From the IMG/VR virus record IMGVR_UViG_3300032462_000026, positions 1 to 38,743 of that record: a DNA stretch of 38,743 nt, one strand, 5' to 3'. The notes beneath the pieces were generated by a model, which saw only the letters and a list, made by a program, of their open reading frames with translations, did not search any database and was not told the DNA's origin. Shown here piece after piece: positions 17,690-33,351 of this stretch. This DNA is from a virus. How positions within the stretch are numbered: the first letter of the stretch is position 1; every line of letters starts with the position of its first letter. Both the position numbers and the translations under genes were made by a program.

Positions 17690-18475
17690 ATGTCAACACC
17701 TTACACCTATTTAATTGGATGGCCACAACATGATGTGTTCTATTACGGAGTTAGATACAAAGCTGGGTGCGACCCAAACGATCTGTTTGTAACTTACTTC
17801 ACATCATCAAAACTTGTTCATGCTTGTATAATGAAATTTGGGATGCCATCTATTAAATCGATTCGTCGAACCTTTAAGACACCGAAACAAGCTATGATTT
17901 GGGAACAGAAAGTCCTTCGTCGTGTTAAAGTTTTATACAGCAAAAGATGGTTGAATCAGAATATATCAGGAGCTATCGAATTTAACATCGATGTTCGGCG
18001 CGCCATGAGTGATGCTAAGAAAAATAAAATCTGGGTTAATAAACACGGGAAAAAGACTTTGATTAGGCGGGAATTACTCAATACTTTTATAGAAAATGGC
18101 TACGCCAAAGGTCACGGCCAATTAAATTTAGGTGACCGCAACGGCATGTGGGGTAAAAAGCATTCGAAGGAAACGCGACAAAAAATATCTAATGTTAGAT
18201 CCAAACAAGGATGTATTCTAACTGAACAAGGCCGCGCAACAAAATCCATCTATATGCAAAAAAACAATCCGATGCATAATCCTGAACACAAAAAACAATA
18301 CGACAATATTATGTCAACTATTAAACGGGGTAAAGGTGTTACAGGGCCAGGCAATCAAGTTTTCAGCTCTGTTCGCGAAGCACAAAAAAACCACCCAGAA
18401 ATAAAATACACAACACTTGCTTATTATTGCGCAAAAAAGAAAAACGGCTGGAGCTACACCGTTTTTCCTTTATAA
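17690..18475 (+). CDS. Free-standing GIY-YIG homing endonuclease with NUMOD3 motif
   Basis: This is a 261-residue protein. YTYLIGW (residues 5-11) and FYYGVRY (17-23) fit a GIY-YIG nuclease core, with a basic helix (Arg59/Arg60) and a candidate catalytic Glu in KQAMIWEQKVLRR (about residue 72). Residues 150-173 (NGMWGKKHSKETRQKISNVR) are a NUMOD3 DNA-binding motif, and a second NPMHNPEHKKQ element follows. The C-terminus (VFSSVREAQKNHPEIKYTTL) resembles a NUMOD1/IENR-type helix-turn-helix. Such genes cut sites in related phages and spread into them. It is one of the few plus-strand genes, lies between 19 and 18, and has an AAGGA site and its own late box. Its 3' end holds the gene 18 terminator. 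Confidence 0.85.
   Translation: MSTPYTYLIGWPQHDVFYYGVRYKAGCDPNDLFVTYFTSSKLVHACIMKFGMPSIKSIRRTFKTPKQAMIWEQKVLRRVKVLYSKRWLNQNISGAIEFNIDVRRAMSDAKKNKIWVNKHGKKTLIRRELLNTFIENGYAKGHGQLNLGDRNGMWGKKHSKETRQKISNVRSKQGCILTEQGRATKSIYMQKNNPMHNPEHKKQYDNIMSTIKRGKGVTGPGNQVFSSVREAQKNHPEIKYTTLAYYCAKKKNGWSYTVFPL
18433..18466 (-). terminator. Terminator-like hairpin after gene 18 (inside the endonuclease gene end)
   Basis: AAAAACGG at 18440-18447 pairs with CCGTTTTT at 18459-18466 around an 11-base loop. On the minus strand the hairpin is followed by TTTTTCTTTTTT, giving a good U-tract, and it lies just beyond the gp18 stop. On the plus strand the run of T is shorter, so weak bidirectional use is possible. The DNA also encodes the last residues of the endonuclease. 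Confidence 0.6.
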
Positions 18476-24486: not shown

Positions 24487-25230
24487 TTAGCCGATCATAT
24501 CGATGTTTGGAAGGGAGTACGAATTTAACATCTCATCTTCCATCTTAACAATTTCTGCCGCTGCGTCGTCGTATATCTTCTGCCCATTAAACTGGACGCC
24601 ACCTGGCAATACCAACCCTTCAAATTTTGTTAAGTTTGACCCCCACTGTTTTTTAATTAGCTGTGTGCAATAGTTCCCTAACCAACGATCACCCCACACA
24701 TCAGTAAACTCGTCGGGATCAACAACTTGGTATGCTTGAATAACAAGATACTGCCCAACATTAACCTTCTCCCAATCCATATCAATATGGAGACGGTTTC
24801 TGTGTCTGTTGTAACGGATTGGTTGTTTACCTACTAGCAACTCTTGAATGAAGGCAATATGTTCCATTGCCATGTAATATGGAATCATCGACACGCTCGA
24901 AAACGTGTACAAATCATTCAGAGCGATTTGGTAACGAATGTTGAACAAATCGTTACTACTAACAGCAGGATCGCCTACAGGAAAAACATACACGGCACCG
25001 ATAATATTTTCTGGTGTTGTAATGTATCTGTCGGTAATTGTCTGTGCGGTAATAAGATGTTTATAGTACACCATTTCAGTGCCATCAAAATGGTAGTCCC
25101 AATAATATTTAATTGCTTCATCAATACGATCTTCAACCTGATCGTCGTCGACGTTTATTTCGATGACAGGCTTTCCTAGCTTTCGCAAGCAATACTCTTT
25201 AAACTGCGACCTACTTGATGGAATAGCCAT
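24487..25230 (-). CDS. 13: gp13 neck protein
   Basis: This 247-residue head completion/neck protein has conserved blocks FKEYCLRKLGKPVIEINVDD, VEDRIDEAIKYYWDYHFDG, NRLHIDMDW and a Trp-rich ADVWGDRWL-like stretch (VWGDRWLGNY). The C-terminus with VLPGGVQFNGQKIYDDA is typical of gp13. It is downstream of and nearly fused to the 108-residue structural gene, whose final AACGAGG codons include its ribosome site. Confidence 0.95.
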   Translation of the reverse strand: MAIPSSRSQFKEYCLRKLGKPVIEINVDDDQVEDRIDEAIKYYWDYHFDGTEMVYYKHLITAQTITDRYITTPENIIGAVYVFPVGDPAVSSNDLFNIRYQIALNDLYTFSSVSMIPYYMAMEHIAFIQELLVGKQPIRYNRHRNRLHIDMDWEKVNVGQYLVIQAYQVVDPDEFTDVWGDRWLGNYCTQLIKKQWGSNLTKFEGLVLPGGVQFNGQKIYDDAAAEIVKMEDEMLNSYSLPNIDMIG

Positions 25231-25586: not shown

Positions 25587-25594
25587 TATTTATA
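25587..25594 (-). promoter_or_regulatory. Late promoter (TATAAATA) for the neck-terminase cluster
   Basis: An exact TATAAATA on the minus strand, 28 bases before the start of the 108-residue virion gene and within the 43-base gap after the TctC-like gene. It should drive that gene and genes 13 to 17. Confidence 0.85.
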
Positions 25595-25602
25595 CAAAAA
25601 CA

Positions 25603-26520
25603 CTATTGGGTTACACCAGCGTCCTTACGAGATTTTGCAATATAATCAGTAAACTTCTTTGATCCGAAGATGCTTGGACTCCAATACAGGTTGTTGTTTT
25701 TGTAGTATTCAACTACGTCCTTATCTTGCAACACATCCATCATCAGAGCAGAGTAGAAATTAATTACCTGTTTTGATACTCCTTTTGGAAGTATAATTCC
25801 ATATCCACCACTGAACGCGAAACCGGGGAGAACTTCACTCAGCGCAGCTACGTTTGGTAGGTCAGGTAAGCGGTTTTCACTTGTAACAGCCGCAATTCCT
25901 ACCTTACCATCGCGGTATATCTCTGCGACTGAACCGACAGGAAGTATTGCATAATTAATATGCCCACCTTGAATGTCGGGGATTATTTGCCCACTCGATT
26001 TATACGGAACAAGTGTTGCTGTTCCTTTCACCACTTTTAACAGGTCGTTTGCTCGTGCGATTTGACCTTTACTTGACACACCAATTGTTGTTTCAACCTT
26101 GTTGAGGTTAGATATGAAATTGGGTAGAGTTCCTACTCCAACAACCGCGAAATAAATTTTTGATGCTATAGTAATATATTCAAAATCGGCCGCGGTATAC
26201 TCCTGCACGCCTTTATAGAAGATATCATTGTATACGAAATGCGATCCGATACCACTAAACGCGAAATAAGACCCATCCTTTGGTTGCCGGTGGAAATAAT
26301 TAATACCAACAACACCGCTGCCACCAGGTCGGTAATCACGAAGCACTTTGATACCCCTCTTTTCGATAGCTTTGTAAATTGGCGCCAACGCCGCGTCGGT
26401 TGATGACCCAGCTGGATACGATACCACGACTACTAGGTTCGTTGGTTTAAATTCTGCATGTGTTTTGATAGTGAACCCGAACAGGACCAAACATAAAACA
26501 ACTATTGATAATATTTTCAT
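25603..26520 (-). CDS. TctC/Bug-family periplasmic solute-binding protein (copy A)
   Basis: This is a 305-residue protein. The first ~22 residues are a Sec signal peptide (MKIL, a hydrophobic run VVLCLVLFGF, then a likely cut after THA). The mature part carries the tripartite tricarboxylate transporter binding-protein pattern: VVVVSYPAGSSTDAAL, a YRPGGSGVVGINYF loop, PKDGSYFAF, VPYKSSGQIIPDIQGGH, AAVTSENRLPDLPNV and GGYGIILPKG. Family members bind carboxylates or aromatic acids in the periplasm and deliver them to a TctAB permease, which is not encoded here. It is translated six bases after PP-loop protein A with a GAGGAA site. A phage copy is unusual; it could supply a host permease or have a new role. 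Confidence 0.88.
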   Translation of the reverse strand: MKILSIVVLCLVLFGFTIKTHAEFKPTNLVVVVSYPAGSSTDAALAPIYKAIEKRGIKVLRDYRPGGSGVVGINYFHRQPKDGSYFAFSGIGSHFVYNDIFYKGVQEYTAADFEYITIASKIYFAVVGVGTLPNFISNLNKVETTIGVSSKGQIARANDLLKVVKGTATLVPYKSSGQIIPDIQGGHINYAILPVGSVAEIYRDGKVGIAAVTSENRLPDLPNVAALSEVLPGFAFSGGYGIILPKGVSKQVINFYSALMMDVLQDKDVVEYYKNNNLYWSPSIFGSKKFTDYIAKSRKDAGVTQ

Positions 26521-26526
26521 ATTTCC

Positions 26527-27735
26527 TCATATAATGTATAGTTTTGATTTAACTCTTGTAATCCTGTTAGGAAGGGTTTTGTCGTGGAATTGCATCGTTT
26601 GCTTGATCCACGGTGCCTTAATACTACTTATGTAGTGTTGCAAACCGCCAACGAGAAGATCAACAGAGCCGTCCGAGCGGCTCTGTTGATAAAACCAAAT
26701 GTCGCGCTCGTTGAGAAAGTGCCCAGATGGCTTCGAGTTAAACTTATTGAAAGAGACCAAATCAGCCGACGTGAGGGAGGGGTAGAGAAGAATTTTCAAC
26801 ATATCGCCACCCAACGCACATATTAATTTGCCATCAGCAGAAAAGTAATTTGACACAAGTTGGTGTTTATATGGATCTTTCCCCGCGTATAACTTTCCAA
26901 GAGTGCTGATTGTTTTATTTGCTACGTGCCGTTGAAAAAAGTTCTTTATAATATGTGATTGCTTAATTATTATCTGTGCGCCTTCATATGTCGGCGACCA
27001 GTAAAACAACTCGTCGACCCCTCCACTCAAACTACTCTCTAATATGTTTTTTGTTGGCGACATTAGTGTTATACAGTCAGCAAAATGAAATGAAAAGTTT
27101 TCGCCGAACCCCTCAACGCGCGGCTTTTCGGCCCCCCACACAAAACAAACTTTTTTTCCTGCTGTTAACAATTCCTTCCATTCACGGGTTCCGTTTTCGT
27201 AAATACTTCCGGCCCTCACCCTGGCTTGAGTGAAAGGTGTCCCGATATCGTTTATCCAGTGGATAAAATCAGAGTTCTTTTTTGTGTAGAAGTTGTTGAG
27301 GTTGTCAGTGATATCAAACAGCGTTTGTTTTGTTTGTATTCCTAATTTTTGCACTTTCGGTATTGCAACATTAAACACTTCATTGTTGACAAAGCTTGCG
27401 GGATTTTGGGATCCCTTCAAATCAACCATAAAACATACTTCGTCGAGCGGAATGTTATTGCGCGCAAACGTTTCGAGAATGTTTGTCGAATCGGACCCGC
27501 CGCTATACATAAGAACAATATGGTCGTATTGTTCTCGTAGTTTTTCTGCTCTTTTCGTATACAGCTCGTCCAACGAGAAGGGTGGTTCAGTTGTCCAGTC
27601 AAACGATGAAAAGAACTCGTCATTATAGTTCCACTTCACATCTTGTGGGTTGTCGGCTAACTGCATTATTTCATATTTGCTGGTCGTTATTAGTTGTTTG
27701 TACTGATAAAAACCATATGTGTGAGGATGATTCAT
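26527..27735 (-). CDS. PP-loop ATPase-like protein A
   Basis: This protein of about 402 residues has the PP-loop pyrophosphatase motif SGGSDS at residues 78-83, in a Rossmann-like context (HIVLMYSGGSDSTN). PP-loop enzymes (asparagine synthetase, QueC, tRNA thiolases, NAD and GMP synthetases) adenylate a carboxylate, carbonyl or base. The substrate is not visible. Further landmarks are KVCFVWGAEKP near the middle and DELFYWSPTYEG. It is clearly paralogous to the protein at 29487-30539. It starts with ATG at 27735, or GTG at 27744. It precedes the TctC-like gene A in the minus-strand arm of the cassette. A perfect 13-bp hairpin lies in its coding region. Confidence 0.82.
   Translation of the reverse strand: MNHPHTYGFYQYKQLITTSKYEIMQLADNPQDVKWNYNDEFFSSFDWTTEPPFSLDELYTKRAEKLREQYDHIVLMYSGGSDSTNILETFARNNIPLDEVCFMVDLKGSQNPASFVNNEVFNVAIPKVQKLGIQTKQTLFDITDNLNNFYTKKNSDFIHWINDIGTPFTQARVRAGSIYENGTREWKELLTAGKKVCFVWGAEKPRVEGFGENFSFHFADCITLMSPTKNILESSLSGGVDELFYWSPTYEGAQIIIKQSHIIKNFFQRHVANKTISTLGKLYAGKDPYKHQLVSNYFSADGKLICALGGDMLKILLYPSLTSADLVSFNKFNSKPSGHFLNERDIWFYQQSRSDGSVDLLVGGLQHYISSIKAPWIKQTMQFHDKTLPNRITRVKSKLYII
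26659..26690. other. Perfect 13-bp inverted repeat inside PP-loop gene A
   Basis: ATCAACAGAGCCG at 26659-26671 is followed by a 6-base loop and its exact complement at 26678-26690. No T-tract follows on either strand, so it is not a standard terminator. It could form an RNA hairpin in the coding region or be a remnant of an insertion; chance is possible. Confidence 0.75.
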
Positions 27736-27751
27736 ATACTTCACTAACCTA

Positions 27752-27771
27752 TATAATATCTGTACAGCTAT
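27752..27771. promoter_or_regulatory. Putative divergent promoter region of the accessory cassette
   Basis: The centre between the two arms holds TATAATAT on the plus strand at 27752-27759, about 27 bases before the TctC-like B start. It also holds CCTAAATA on the minus strand (27764-27771), about 29 bases before the ATG of PP-loop A. These spacings match the exact late boxes, but both sequences are imperfect. TATAAT could also act as a -10 element without a good -35. Confidence 0.35.
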
Positions 27772-27785
27772 TTAGGAGGTTGGTT

Positions 27786-28688
27786 ATGAATTGGTTATTA
27801 GTGTGTTTGATTGTTTTGATGCCGTCGACGCCGCGGGCACAGGATGTTTCACAAATATACGTTGCGTATCCACCAGGAGGGTTAGGAGATATTTTAGCGC
27901 GGCACGTGTCAAAATATATAGGGCCACTTCAGGTAGTCAATATCCCAGGACCACTCAATCAACAAGCAGCCAAGACAGCTTTTCGTAACAACCAGTTGAT
28001 GTCTGTTGAAACATCGAGTCTCGCAATTACTCCTGAGATTTACGGCCGAGAAAAATCGTACGACATGTACGATAACTTTCAAAGAGCAATAATATTAGGA
28101 TCGTCGCCGATGGTTCTTGTTGTTAATGCTGACCTCCCTATAAACAACGTTGCCGAATTCAAACGATATAACGCTGATAATAATGTCGACGTCACATACG
28201 CAACAGCCGGCTCTATTACGATTGTAGCGGCGTTAGAATTTCTCGAGCTTGCAAAGATTAAAGCTCGCCCAATTCCATACAAGGGTGGCGCTGATGCTAT
28301 CCAGGCAGTTATGGGTGGGCACGTGACGTTTCACTTCGGAAATCTCACAGGAGCAATAACACAAACACGCGTTAAAATTATTGCGGTCGGTACACAAAAC
28401 CGAGTTGACCAGCTTCCTGAAGTAATGACAGTGAAAGAGCAACTCGGCAAAACGCTCACAACAAAAGGTTATTTTGGTGTTGGTTTGCCAAACGGTATTA
28501 ACAGTGATATGGCTAATGTGTGGGCAAACCGGTTTAAGTTGTTGTGCGGCAGCAATCAGTTTGCTGCAGATATGAGTAAATACGGGTTTACAGTCGAGTG
28601 TTTAAACGGTGCAGCCTATCACACAACAATCACAAACCAACAGAAATTTTATCGTGATATGATTACAAAATATGGGCTGCAAAGATGA
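27786..28688 (+). CDS. TctC/Bug-family periplasmic solute-binding protein (copy B)
   Basis: This is a 300-residue protein. A short Sec signal peptide (MNWLLVCLIVLMPSTPRA, likely cut before QDV) precedes a mature domain with IYVAYPPGGLGDILARHVSKY, the 'PPGG..D..AR' hallmark of the family. PIPYKGGADAIQAVMGGHVTF and IAVGTQNRVDQLPEVMTV follow the family order. It differs widely from copy A, so this is not a recent duplication. The start has an excellent AGGAGG site; a longer open frame from 27582 is antisense to PP-loop A and rejected. Its stop overlaps the next gene by ATGA. Export to the periplasm is predicted; the ligand is unknown. Confidence 0.88.
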   Translation: MNWLLVCLIVLMPSTPRAQDVSQIYVAYPPGGLGDILARHVSKYIGPLQVVNIPGPLNQQAAKTAFRNNQLMSVETSSLAITPEIYGREKSYDMYDNFQRAIILGSSPMVLVVNADLPINNVAEFKRYNADNNVDVTYATAGSITIVAALEFLELAKIKARPIPYKGGADAIQAVMGGHVTFHFGNLTGAITQTRVKIIAVGTQNRVDQLPEVMTVKEQLGKTLTTKGYFGVGLPNGINSDMANVWANRFKLLCGSNQFAADMSKYGFTVECLNGAAYHTTITNQQKFYRDMITKYGLQR

Positions 28689-29500
28689 AAACACACAAAA
28701 ACTGGCTTTTAACAAATATTGCCGAAAAACAGTTTAATCATCACCTCAACTATACGGTTTATACCCGTTTATACCCGTTTTACGACGTTTCCTTTCAACG
28801 ATCGATAGAATGTACGATCAATGAAATTCGAAACCTTAAAAACGACTTATATGTTGGATTGAGTGGTGGAGCTGATTCTGAGTTTGTGTTGAAGTCGTTC
28901 GTAGAACGACATGTTCCTATCACACCCGTAATTGTAAAGTGTGAAGGAAACGAAGCAGAAACATTCTATGCTTATAAAGCGTGTCGGCGCTTTAATGTTG
29001 ATCCGGTAATTATTATGGCTGATAACAACAAACTAATTAGCACGTTTGAAGAGATGAATGGAAAACTTCCAATGCACGGAATAATGGCTATCCCACAACT
29101 AATTGCAGCAGAGTTTGTTGCGCGCCGTGAAGGGTTTATAATAAACCCAAACCACTTAAACGGCGACGGCGACGGAAAAGTTATTGAAGGAATTTTTGAG
29201 CGGAATGAATGGGACGATTATGTCGATGTACTGTATCCAGGAATGGCAATCGAATTTTTCTCCTACCACATTGAAACGATCTACGCAATGACACTGCTAG
29301 CAACAAAAGGAACGTGGCAACAGTATAAAAGCAAACTATACCAAACACCATATCGACCGAAGATGCGCGCGAAATACCACCCAACAGTAGTCGATTTTTT
29401 TGACAAAACGATTGCAGATTTTCCACAATCGAACCCCCACTTTTGTTTTGGCAACAGGAATCAAGTCCTTGAAAGATTGAGCCCCTATGTTATCAAGTAA
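28685..29500 (+). CDS. PP-loop ATPase-like protein B
   Basis: This 271-residue protein has SGGADS at residues 60-65 (YVGLSGGADSEFVLK), the PP-loop signature, and no cysteine desulfurase-type partner domain. It is shorter than proteins A and C and not obviously paralogous to them beyond the motif. A region PMHGIMAIPQLIAAEFVARREGFIINPNHLNGDGDGKV may form the substrate site. It overlaps the TctC-like B stop (ATGA) and its end overlaps PP-loop C by 14 bases, so the three plus-strand genes form one coupled operon. An amide-forming or base-modifying reaction is possible; nothing fixes it. Confidence 0.8.
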   Translation: MKTHKNWLLTNIAEKQFNHHLNYTVYTRLYPFYDVSFQRSIECTINEIRNLKNDLYVGLSGGADSEFVLKSFVERHVPITPVIVKCEGNEAETFYAYKACRRFNVDPVIIMADNNKLISTFEEMNGKLPMHGIMAIPQLIAAEFVARREGFIINPNHLNGDGDGKVIEGIFERNEWDDYVDVLYPGMAIEFFSYHIETIYAMTLLATKGTWQQYKSKLYQTPYRPKMRAKYHPTVVDFFDKTIADFPQSNPHFCFGNRNQVLERLSPYVIK

Positions 29501-30539
29501 GTTAGGTTTTTATCAGAGTGGGAAAAATGTTAGTGTTTCGCGTCGAGAAGTAACAGAAAGAACACTATCAATACCACATTGGAATTTCAACGACGATGTG
29601 TTTAGTGTTGTTAATTGGAATAAAGAACCTCCAGAAACATTATCGGATTTATATATTGCGCGTTGCCGGCAACTAAGAGAAAAATACGATTACGTAGTTC
29701 TAATGTTTAGTGGTGGCAGTGACAGCGACAATATGTTGGAGCACTGGTTGCTTTCAGGATGTAAGTTGGACGAGGTTGTTATATTGAACAGGCAATCAGG
29801 TGCCAACGACAAAACGAGTTTTTCAGAAATTGAGCAGAACGTTGTTGCGATCCCAAAAGCGATGATGCTCCAACAACTTCACAAGTTCAAACTAACAATA
29901 TTTGACCAATCGACAGCGATGATCGATTTTATAAAACAAACAGACGACATACCATACGTAAGCAACATCATAATCACGCCAAATGTAGGCTCGAGAAGGT
30001 TTTTGTTTGAGCAGCCACATATTAAGCGTGTGCTTAGTCAGGGCAAGAAAGTGGTTTTAGTTTGGGGGGCAGATAAAATTATACACAGCTTTCGCAAACA
30101 AAAGCTTTCTGTGTCATTTGATCAACATAACGTCGAATGTTGTGTTGGTCCGCTACTAATTGCTAACAGTGGTGAGAAAGAAGGGAAGTGTCACGAGCTT
30201 TTTTATTGGACCGCTGACTTTCCAGATGTTGTTATTAAGCAAGCGCACGTTATCAAACAGTATCTGTCGTGCCCAATAAACCACGTAACTAATCCACAAT
30301 TTGTATCGTATGGGCAGCAATCAATCAAGCTAACGGACGACGGGTACCGAAGAGTCGTGTACCCTTTTTGGGATTTAAAAACATTTACGGCAGGAAAAAG
30401 CAGTAGCACAACAATCTCTAATAGAGATCAATGGCTTTGGAGAGGTAATCTACCTGAAGCGAGAAGGTTTGAAGATATCGTAAAACAATACCACACAAAC
30501 GTCACAACAACGAAAAATACTTACACAGTCGGGTCGTAG
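29487..30539 (+). CDS. PP-loop ATPase-like protein C (paralog of A)
   Basis: This 350-residue protein has SGGSDS at residues 75-80 (VVLMFSGGSDSDN). It shares with protein A the same layout: GFYQ at the N-terminus, a W-N-F-N-D segment, EPPETLSDLY, LREKYDYVVLMF, LDEVV, AIPK, LVWGADK and ELFYWTADFPDVVIKQAHVIK. The two are therefore paralogs, placed in opposite orientation on either side of the cassette. The start is inside the end of PP-loop B. Its final 19 bases overlap the convergent gene ending at 30521, so there is no space for a terminator. Confidence 0.82.
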   Translation: MLSSKLGFYQSGKNVSVSRREVTERTLSIPHWNFNDDVFSVVNWNKEPPETLSDLYIARCRQLREKYDYVVLMFSGGSDSDNMLEHWLLSGCKLDEVVILNRQSGANDKTSFSEIEQNVVAIPKAMMLQQLHKFKLTIFDQSTAMIDFIKQTDDIPYVSNIIITPNVGSRRFLFEQPHIKRVLSQGKKVVLVWGADKIIHSFRKQKLSVSFDQHNVECCVGPLLIANSGEKEGKCHELFYWTADFPDVVIKQAHVIKQYLSCPINHVTNPQFVSYGQQSIKLTDDGYRRVVYPFWDLKTFTAGKSSSTTISNRDQWLWRGNLPEARRFEDIVKQYHTNVTTTKNTYTVGS

Positions 30540-31024
30540 GAGTCGAACTGTACATTGACGGCCAATAGAGCATCAATCGACGTTGCCGCGTTCAAATCCT
30601 TCGCGGCGGCGTCGGCAAGTTTTTTAATCGATTGCTTGTATTTGATTAATTCTTCGAGAACGCCGCCCTGTTCGATGAGGTCGATTGCCCGCATTTTTGC
30701 GTAGTCATTAAGATAGTTATATTTTGATTTCAAATTTTGTTGGATTCTATTGCGTACCAATTTCAATTCAACATCGGAAACTTTCAGTGCAATTGATGAA
30801 TCCTCTTCGTTCATTACGTATTCCCCATCAAAATTATGTTTTTCAAGATCGGGGCAACGGTCAACAATTTCGGCAATCTGATTCTCGACGACAAAAAGCA
30901 TGCGGCTTAAATTGTAGCCAGCAACGTTATTAGCGAATTCGTCTGGCGACAGTCGTCGAGCAACAGCGGACCGGTCAGCAGTGAGGTAGACGAATTGTGT
31001 ATCTTTTACGTTAGCGTATATCAT
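30521..31024 (-). CDS. Unrecognised protein, possible tail-fibre assembly protein
   Basis: This 167-residue, helical, charged protein has an internal coiled-coil-like stretch (LVRNRIQQNLKSKYNYLND, then ELIKYKQSIKKLADAAAKDL). The overall style resembles small phage chaperones or fibre assembly proteins encoded beside fibre genes, but I see no diagnostic motif. Its start overlaps the 2OG oxygenase stop by ATGA. Its 3' end overlaps the convergent PP-loop C gene by 19 bases. Confidence 0.55.
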   Translation of the reverse strand: MIYANVKDTQFVYLTADRSAVARRLSPDEFANNVAGYNLSRMLFVVENQIAEIVDRCPDLEKHNFDGEYVMNEEDSSIALKVSDVELKLVRNRIQQNLKSKYNYLNDYAKMRAIDLIEQGGVLEELIKYKQSIKKLADAAAKDLNAATSIDALLAVNVQFDSYDPTV

Positions 31025-31569
31025 ACAAATTTAGGCCCCGTAAACCAGTTAACAAGCGAGTATCGCGTTCCAAATGTTACGGGAGCAACACGATGTCTCA
31101 ACGCTGAAGGAAACACCATAACAGATCCTCGTGGTTTGATTAGCGGTTGTTCTTCTCGTTTATATCCTTCAAACTGAAAATCGCCGCCACCATAATCATC
31201 GTTTAATGTGATCACGAGGCTGAGCTTTCTCATTCCGTCTTTGTGTCGTGAAGAGTCTTGATGATAGTCGTAAAAATCATCAACATCATACACAGTGAAC
31301 TGAGGAACTTCTTGCCCGGTGATTGCAAAGTTCCACGCCTGCTTATTAGCTTGTGACATATAATGCCACGCGATAGCGGAAAGCCACGCGTGTTTTGAAG
31401 GCTCGAGGAAAGCAGTGCGCGATAAACGAATATCTTCGTTGACTTTTGGGTTATCGGTATCAACAACCGCCGCAGCTATTCCCCCTCTCAAACCTTCAGA
31501 AATTATTACGTTGCACACCGAAGGTGGAATTTCACTTTCCCAAAACCAGTGAGTTGGCTCAATAATCAT
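31021..31569 (-). CDS. 2-oxoglutarate/Fe(II)-dependent dioxygenase (prolyl 4-hydroxylase-like)
   Basis: This protein of about 182 residues has the jelly-roll Fe(II) triad YHQDSS (His-x-Asp) in the central region, and a distal His in LRHRVAPVTFGTRYSLVNWF. The Arg 10 residues after that His binds 2-oxoglutarate in this family. GGGDFQFEG and KPRGSVMVFPSALRHRV are typical of PKHD-type hydroxylases common in marine phages. Substrates are unknown; hydroxylation of a fibre protein, such as the nearby Gly-rich or collagen-like proteins, is a fair hypothesis. The ATG at 31569 overlaps the DUF6065-like stop by ATGA; an earlier ATG at 31584 has no ribosome site. Confidence 0.9.
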   Translation of the reverse strand: MIIEPTHWFWESEIPPSVCNVIISEGLRGGIAAAVVDTDNPKVNEDIRLSRTAFLEPSKHAWLSAIAWHYMSQANKQAWNFAITGQEVPQFTVYDVDDFYDYHQDSSRHKDGMRKLSLVITLNDDYGGGDFQFEGYKREEQPLIKPRGSVMVFPSALRHRVAPVTFGTRYSLVNWFTGPKFV

Positions 31570-32267
31570 ACCTTCTTTTCCCATAAATTATCGCGGTAAT
31601 AACTTCTTTCCGACGATCGGCGATCTCTTGTCTTGTTGAGTTTTTGCAAATCTTTTCCTGTCAACGAATCAATTAGTGGAGCCTTTTTGTAATCTCTTTT
31701 AAACGGAATTGCCTGCATAAGAGGATACCCCCTCTCAAGTTTCATCGGTCCATCTGTTACTTTGAGGAAACCAGGGAAGTTAACGAACTCGAAGTATTTA
31801 TCTGTCTCGACAATACCAGTCATCAGATCGAGTTTTCCGTCTGGGCGGTTGAACGGCATTGTGAATATTGTCGACCAGCCAGGAGGAGTTTGGATCAACC
31901 AATGGTTGAGAAATTTGAGGGGAACAGAGGGAACTTTTGGATGACCAGCTATTTGCTTCAGATTATGTGACTCGCACATATTCATGACAAAATCACTCTC
32001 CCAACAAACGCGTTCTCCGTTGTTAGAAACAAGAAAATGTATATCGGCAGCGAGAGGAATAATCCACCCAACCGACATGGCGTCGAGGAATGGCGGGCAG
32101 CGTTTAATTGTTGACGCCGGCGTTATTTTTCCTTCTTCTTGAAAAGTAGGATCGAGCCGTTTAAACCAATCAGGGATCAACCGTTTCGCTGGATACGGCT
32201 CTGGTATAACATCCTTACAACGCGGGTCACAAAGAAATTTAATTTCATCACTTCCATTCCAAAACAT
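31566..32267 (-). CDS. DUF6065-like conserved phage protein
   Basis: This 233-residue protein has aromatic and Pro-rich blocks: DVIPEPYPAKRLIPDWFKRL, a CPPFLDAMSVGWIIPLAADI stretch, HWLIQTPPGWSTIFTMPFNRPDG and RGYPLMQAIPFKRDY. This is the pattern of DUF6065 proteins found near tail genes in T4-like marine phages, often beside 2OG dioxygenases. Function is unknown. It is translated with an AAGGAGA site that includes the Gly-rich gene stop region, and it couples to the dioxygenase. Confidence 0.75.
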   Translation of the reverse strand: MFWNGSDEIKFLCDPRCKDVIPEPYPAKRLIPDWFKRLDPTFQEEGKITPASTIKRCPPFLDAMSVGWIIPLAADIHFLVSNNGERVCWESDFVMNMCESHNLKQIAGHPKVPSVPLKFLNHWLIQTPPGWSTIFTMPFNRPDGKLDLMTGIVETDKYFEFVNFPGFLKVTDGPMKLERGYPLMQAIPFKRDYKKAPLIDSLTGKDLQKLNKTRDRRSSERSYYRDNLWEKKV

Positions 32268-32277
32268 AATGTTCTCC

Positions 32278-33351
<1,074 letters not shown>

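Follow-up and report, generated by a model that had tools for sequence, protein, structure and literature searches.

The cassette and its genomic setting

The window, that is, the whole stretch of 38,743 nt analysed here (IMG/VR record IMGVR_UViG_3300032462_000026, positions 1–38,743), is a virus record whose portal, sheath, terminase, sheath stabilizer and neck genes are of T4 type. Between its T4-type neck and tail genes lies a cassette of five genes, whose two arms diverge from a short intergenic region (nt 27736–27785). The minus arm consists of PP-loop A, an N-type ATP-pyrophosphatase-like protein of 402–405 aa (nt 26527–27735 with an ATG start, or up to 27744 with a GTG start), followed by TctC A, a predicted exported solute-binding protein of 305 aa (nt 25603–26520). 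The plus arm encodes TctC B, also a predicted exported solute-binding protein (300 aa, nt 27786–28688), PP-loop B (271 aa, nt 28685–29500) and PP-loop C (350 aa, nt 29487–30539). The start of PP-loop B overlaps the stop of TctC B by ATGA (nt 28685–28688), the PP-loop B and C genes overlap by 14 bases (nt 29487–29500), and TctC B has a ribosome site, AGGAGG, at nt 27774–27779. The five reading frames, both overlaps and the divergent gap were thus all found where a first-pass annotation, made from the letters of the window, had placed them. The slot is bordered on the left by a head-tail adaptor or neck protein gene (nt 24487–25230, minus strand; phrog_211, 5e-39) and on the right by a 2OG-Fe(II) oxygenase gene (nt 31021–31584, minus strand; PF13640, 4.8e-14). 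Genes were called with a simple ORF picker, and the records searched were fragments.

According to the first-pass annotation, evidence of an assembly chimera would have refuted its proposal. A chimera was ruled out for the cassette by a 92-kb contig from another metagenome (IMGVR_UViG_3300007722_000005), which shares 99.8% identity with the window over 18 kb, including the entire cassette. Each cassette gene differs between the two contigs by 0–4 mismatches, and TctC A is 100% identical.

Promoter scans of the window were uninformative, as shuffled sequence scored as well. No exact copy of the T4 late-promoter sequence TATAAATA occurs within the cassette, whereas exact copies are present outside it, one of them at nt 25587, just beyond its edge, which argues weakly against a dedicated late promoter. 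Two further genes of the window may be mentioned. One, beside the sheath gene (nt 17690–18475, plus strand), is homing endonuclease-like (phrog_314, 6.5e-15). The other, near the cassette (nt 32278–33351, minus strand), encodes a glycine-rich protein resembling glycine-rich tail-fibre adhesins and lies in a 57% GC island.

TctC receptors and PP-loop proteins

TctC A and TctC B score above the PF03401 cut-off (46.8 and 82.9 bits, respectively, versus 27; E-values 3.7e-12 and 3.6e-23), which bears out the earlier identification of both as TctC proteins. Signal peptides were called by a hydropathy scan and by eye for AxA-like sites, without SignalP. A Sec-type signal peptide, MKILSIVVLCLVLFGFTIKTHA, was found in TctC A, and TctC B has the signal MNWLLVCLIVLMPSTPRAQ and carries a YPPGGLGD motif. 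A profile built from TctC B and other phage TctCs matched the structures of Bug27, BugD and the terephthalate-binding protein (1e-58 to 1e-62). The two proteins are thus members of the PF03401 solute-binding proteins, for which export and carboxylate binding are predicted. They share with the Bug receptors the family, the signal peptide and a YPxGG-type motif; they differ from them in being phage-encoded, in standing beside PP-loop genes and in having no TctA in the same phage. The best plasmid-borne bacterial copies are 26–30% identical to TctC B. The window and its 92-kb twin, which jointly cover about 96 kb of this phage, yielded neither a TctA nor a DctM permease gene. TctC genes without permease neighbours are common in bacteria, so that the missing neighbour does not lower the membership claim. 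Receptors of the TTT and TRAP types are known mostly as carboxylate binders.

The three PP-loop proteins carry the motifs SGGSDS (A and C) and SGGADS (B), but gave no significant match to Pfam, PHROG or NCBIfam models. They had been described as three PP-loop proteins without distinction. The motifs and folds agree with this, and it can now be refined, since A is a homologue of C (34% identity) and B belongs to a separate PP-loop subfamily. Across 32 aligned relatives of the A/C family, SGG-D-S is invariant and signal peptides are absent. The profile of PP-loop B relatives matched NAD synthetase (4.9e-8), and also GMP synthase, TtuA and QueC. The structure predictions suggested in the first-pass annotation were made for A and B, and both AlphaFold models (pLDDT 78.9 and 82.6, respectively) matched N-type ATP-pyrophosphatase folds in a Foldseek search of the PDB. 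For A, the nearest folds were beta-lactam synthetase, asparagine synthetase B, LarE and carbapenam synthetase; for B, they were asparagine synthetase, NAD synthetase and TtuA. Match probabilities reached 1.00, with best E-values of 6.6e-4 (A) and 1.5e-6 (B), and TM-scores were between 0.2 and 0.5. At such TM-scores the models support the class (AsnB, beta-lactam synthetase, NAD synthetase) but not an exact reaction.

Like the known enzymes of this class, among them the C-terminal domain of AsnB, beta-lactam and carbapenam synthetases, LarE and NAD synthetase, the cassette proteins have the SGGxDS loop and the predicted core fold; unlike them, they fit no named family and lack a glutaminase domain before the loop. 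Membership of two named families was ruled out. The AsnB family was rejected because the N-terminal glutaminase domain is missing: the loop is preceded by only about 80 residues in A, 73 in C and 59 in B, and no glutaminase Pfam match was obtained for any of the three. In NH3-dependent NAD synthetase, a GTGNKSE-type motif follows the PP-loop, and this motif is absent from A, B and C.

Distribution of the PP-loop family and content of the slot

A profile of PP-loops A and C detected 32 viral loci, and a broader PP profile at least 411 viral loci in one collection, before dereplication. In contrast, a scan of 84,980 species genomes returned a single match, on a 3.1-kb contig of a Methylococcaceae MAG that has the gene order DctP-PP-PP and is itself virus-like. 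An origin as a prophage or bacterial gene family was ruled out on this basis. Among isolate phages, no relative of PP-loops A, B or C or of TctC A was found, and TctC B had four distant TctC matches; Pseudomonas phage Cygsa01 encodes one protein 26% identical to a marine PP protein, annotated as MnmA, with no TctC annotated nearby. In the collections searched, the PP family thus appears nearly confined to uncultivated viruses.

Two phages (L011 and L013) share the backbone of the window at about 40–60% identity, with a neck protein 52% identical at the same place. In both, the slot from the neck gene to the 2OG oxygenase contains orthologues of PP-loops B and C, but no TctC. In a third phage (L019), the right half of the slot is as in these two and a PP-loop B orthologue occupies the same slot. 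The oxygenase is 48–49% identical at the same place in all three. On the tree, PP-loop C groups with the TctC-less PP genes of these phages. The closest relative of PP-loop A is a PP gene of another phage, L004 (42% identity, support 99), which also adjoins a TctC gene, in convergent orientation. Given that PP-loops B and C stand in a TctC-less slot of phages with the same backbone, the cassette is composite, made of a PP-loop B/C block shared with the L011/L013/L019 type and of a block comprising PP-loop A, TctC A and TctC B.

Association of TctC and PP-loop genes

The association was surveyed in the best 80 of the 411 PP loci and the best 80 of the 470 DctP loci. At the PP loci, local HMMs detected transporter genes of the TctC, DctP, TctA, SBP family 5 and porin types, usually touching or overlapping the PP gene. 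A TctC match was present in 12 of the 33 records searched from the A and C profile. When PP proteins were clustered at 60% identity (n=53), a transporter gene was found within 500 b in 19 clusters and within 3 kb in 31. Among 57 dereplicated PP-anchored lineages, TctC, DctP or TctA was present in the locus in 26 and was the next gene in 23. Over these lineages, 28 transporter genes adjoined a PP gene, versus 6.3 expected, and the maximum in 2000 within-locus shuffles was 14. TctC alone accounted for 22 of the 131 genes located within 500 b of a PP gene (17%), versus less than 1% at 2–8 kb. Reciprocally, of 79 DctP-anchored loci (out of 470), PP-family genes were present in 49 and TctC genes in 23 (within 5 kb). 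Placement in relatives was therefore not random, and a linked module, as proposed in the first-pass annotation, is strongly supported over chance neighbours.

The pairing was not inherited as a single arrangement. Mapped onto the tree of 98 PP proteins, the label “TctC neighbour” requires 25 changes, at least 16 of them forced by well-supported branches, so that the pairing has arisen many times. In 36 TctC-PP pairs, 27 were tandem, in either order, seven were divergent and two convergent; the divergent two-arm layout described for the cassette is thus not conserved. On the other hand, 56 of the 98 dereplicated PP genes had no TctC, DctP or TctA-type neighbour within 250 b, and the same was true of the nearest relatives of PP-loop C.

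That the two genes have come together so often argues for selection on the combination and against inheritance of a single block; the main rival is a shared insertion hot spot. Under this alternative, TctC or DctP genes (boosting uptake) and PP-loop genes (acting in nucleotide, cofactor or glycan chemistry) would be separately beneficial, would act on different compounds and would merely share a slot between T4-type structural genes. Insertion at a shared site could by itself raise adjacency. Moreover, the content of the slot varies without TctC in phages of the same backbone (radical SAM, PP-loops B and C, 2OG oxygenase), and PP genes also adjoin radical SAM, NMO-like, MR_MLE, carbamoyltransferase and FkbM genes. 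However, TctC is the commonest neighbour family of PP genes, lying immediately next to them and often overlapping them, in either order, and the link recurs when loci are anchored on DctP. If a hot spot were the sole cause, the genes should be mixed over a distance of several genes, whereas the TctC, DctP and TctA types made up 28 of the 131 genes lying no more than 500 b from a PP gene, but 9 of 586 at 2–8 kb. We consider the hot spot somewhat unlikely as the explanation of the pairing.

Permeases, porins and DctP proteins in related phages

A TctA gene was present in 6 of the 33 PP-bearing records, adjoining TctC in several of them. Phage genes for Gram-negative porins (PF13609) adjoin TctC or PP-loop genes in two relatives (L006:17491–18372 and L028:17722–18741); among the relatives, an MFS carrier gene also lies near a PP gene. 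The similarity of the porins and TctC proteins hints, tentatively, at freshwater hosts of Burkholderiales type. In a phage represented by L178/L209, a DctP-PP pair occurs together with genes for a permease of the DctM type and a TAXI-like receptor, whose signal peptide was identified by eye. In L209, which is T4-like, the permease and receptor genes stand between the terminase and tail-sheath genes (L209:1702–3964, minus strand). The presence of matching permeases and porins in relatives lends support to uptake as part of the function.

A profile of phage DctP proteins (TRAP receptors, PF03480) detected about 470 viral loci before dereplication (e.g. L025:7852–9771, L178:4998–5942). These proteins correspond to PHROG 31178, which has no function annotation, and many of their genes overlap a PP-loop gene by ATGA. 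All of the 82 examined lack a signal peptide and start at the first strand of the mature protein; they should therefore stay in the cytoplasm, whereas the TctCs are predicted to be exported. The first-pass annotation did not include these proteins. Six of seven aligned phage DctPs have an arginine at what we take to be the carboxylate-binding position of TRAP receptors. They could thus be cytoplasmic carboxylate binders working with the PP enzyme. Estimates of dN/dS, from pairs with unsaturated synonymous sites, were 0.10–0.17 for TctC, 0.05–0.06 for PP and 0.07–0.23 for DctP, values which show that the three proteins are maintained by purifying selection.

The binding proteins might instead have been repurposed, as decoys, as receptor-blocking or superinfection factors or as virion parts, with the PP-loop proteins in an unrelated role. 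Signal-less DctP genes can indeed sit among structural genes, and a glycine-rich fibre-like protein is encoded near the cassette. However, the TctCs have ordinary Sec-like signals and conserved receptor motifs, and permeases travel with them in relatives. We regard repurposing as very improbable, and for the exported proteins nothing was found in support of the receptor-binding or superinfection role that had been put forward as an alternative.

Possible function of the module

Asparagine, beta-lactam, carbapenam and NAD synthetases activate carboxylates with ATP. As TTT and TRAP receptors mostly bind carboxylates and the nearest folds of the PP-loop proteins are mostly carboxylate-activating, capture and import of an organic acid and then its ATP-dependent activation is the simplest joint reading. 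During infection, TctC A and TctC B, exported to the periplasm, would pick up a scarce carboxylate there and hand it to a TctA/TctB-type permease, the host's own here and a phage-encoded one in some relatives. After import, the cytoplasmic PP-loop enzymes would adenylate the carboxylate and turn it into an amide, ester or thio product, a conversion which would trap it or feed phage biosynthesis. We tentatively favour this function, with the cassette as one instance of a module that recurs in T4-like phages infecting aquatic bacteria, at a likelihood slightly short of even. It is weakened by the lack of a TctA or DctM gene in about 96 kb of the window phage, by the signal-less DctP proteins of relatives, by the many PP genes that have no transporter neighbour and by the remoteness of the fold matches. 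Consistent with the function, the partner class shifts among relatives (TctC, DctP, TctA, DctM with a TAXI-like receptor) while the substrate theme apparently stays that of organic acids. For the compound-handling system proposed in the first-pass annotation, linkage and uptake are thus backed by the relatives, with their permeases and porins, and the activation or conjugation step is one that we infer from the fold class.

Two further readings were considered. According to the first, TctC boosts carbon or nitrogen import during infection, and the PP-loops are unrelated ligases or nucleic-acid modification enzymes. It has precedents in phage pstS (PMC6359870) and in a tctA domain match in SUP05 viral contigs (PMC4164917), and relatives carry permeases and porins. 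However, it leaves the pairing with PP genes and the signal-less DctP proteins unexplained, and appears quite improbable. According to the second, exported TctC and signal-less cytoplasmic DctP would form a two-compartment system delivering organic acids to virus-specific PP-loop ligases. The product of these ligases would be specific to the phage (a modified nucleotide, cofactor, glycan, lipid or sequestered signal), going beyond a mere boost to host metabolism. The uniform lack of a signal peptide on phage DctPs does not fit plain uptake; still, we hold this more elaborate system to be rather unlikely.

Phage PstS is thought to boost phosphate import during infection (PMC6359870). As in that case, what the phage encodes is the solute-binding component of a transporter of the host, but the cassette receptors would be for organic acids and have an ATP-dependent enzyme as gene partner. 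The host-type transporter gene lies here in a genuine phage genome, between T4-type structural genes, and the same phage was recovered from two metagenomes. The tctA match in SUP05 viral contigs, a single domain match with no role assigned, concerns the permease of the transporter family of TctC, and no PP-loop partner is described in the passage on it (PMC4164917). In the literature searched, which covered a minority of subscription papers and no bioRxiv preprints, no phage module of the TctC/PP-loop or DctP/PP-loop type was found to be described. The recurrent pairing suggests a previously undescribed phage module for nutrient uptake and chemical activation.

If the favoured function is correct, many uncultivated T4-like phages (at least 411 PP and 470 DctP loci, before dereplication) bring their own chemistry for capturing and activating organic acids. 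Phosphate uptake would then be joined by a new class of auxiliary metabolism, carried by a protein family that is nearly restricted to viruses. Strong pairing also predicts a shared substrate, so that the function of an orphan enzyme family becomes testable through its binding-protein partner.

Three related loci have a richer gene content. One phage contig (L016:1–9960) encodes three TctA, three TctC and fatty acid desaturase-like genes with one PP-loop gene, and in a related one (L017) a gene for a Vut_1 transporter (putative vitamin uptake) occurs as well. The third (L031:8485–18901) contains a radical SAM/SPASM gene, two PP-loops, a TctA (frame-broken here), a TctC-like exported protein, a carbamoyltransferase and an SBP family 5 gene, and resembles a small cluster for biosynthesis and uptake.
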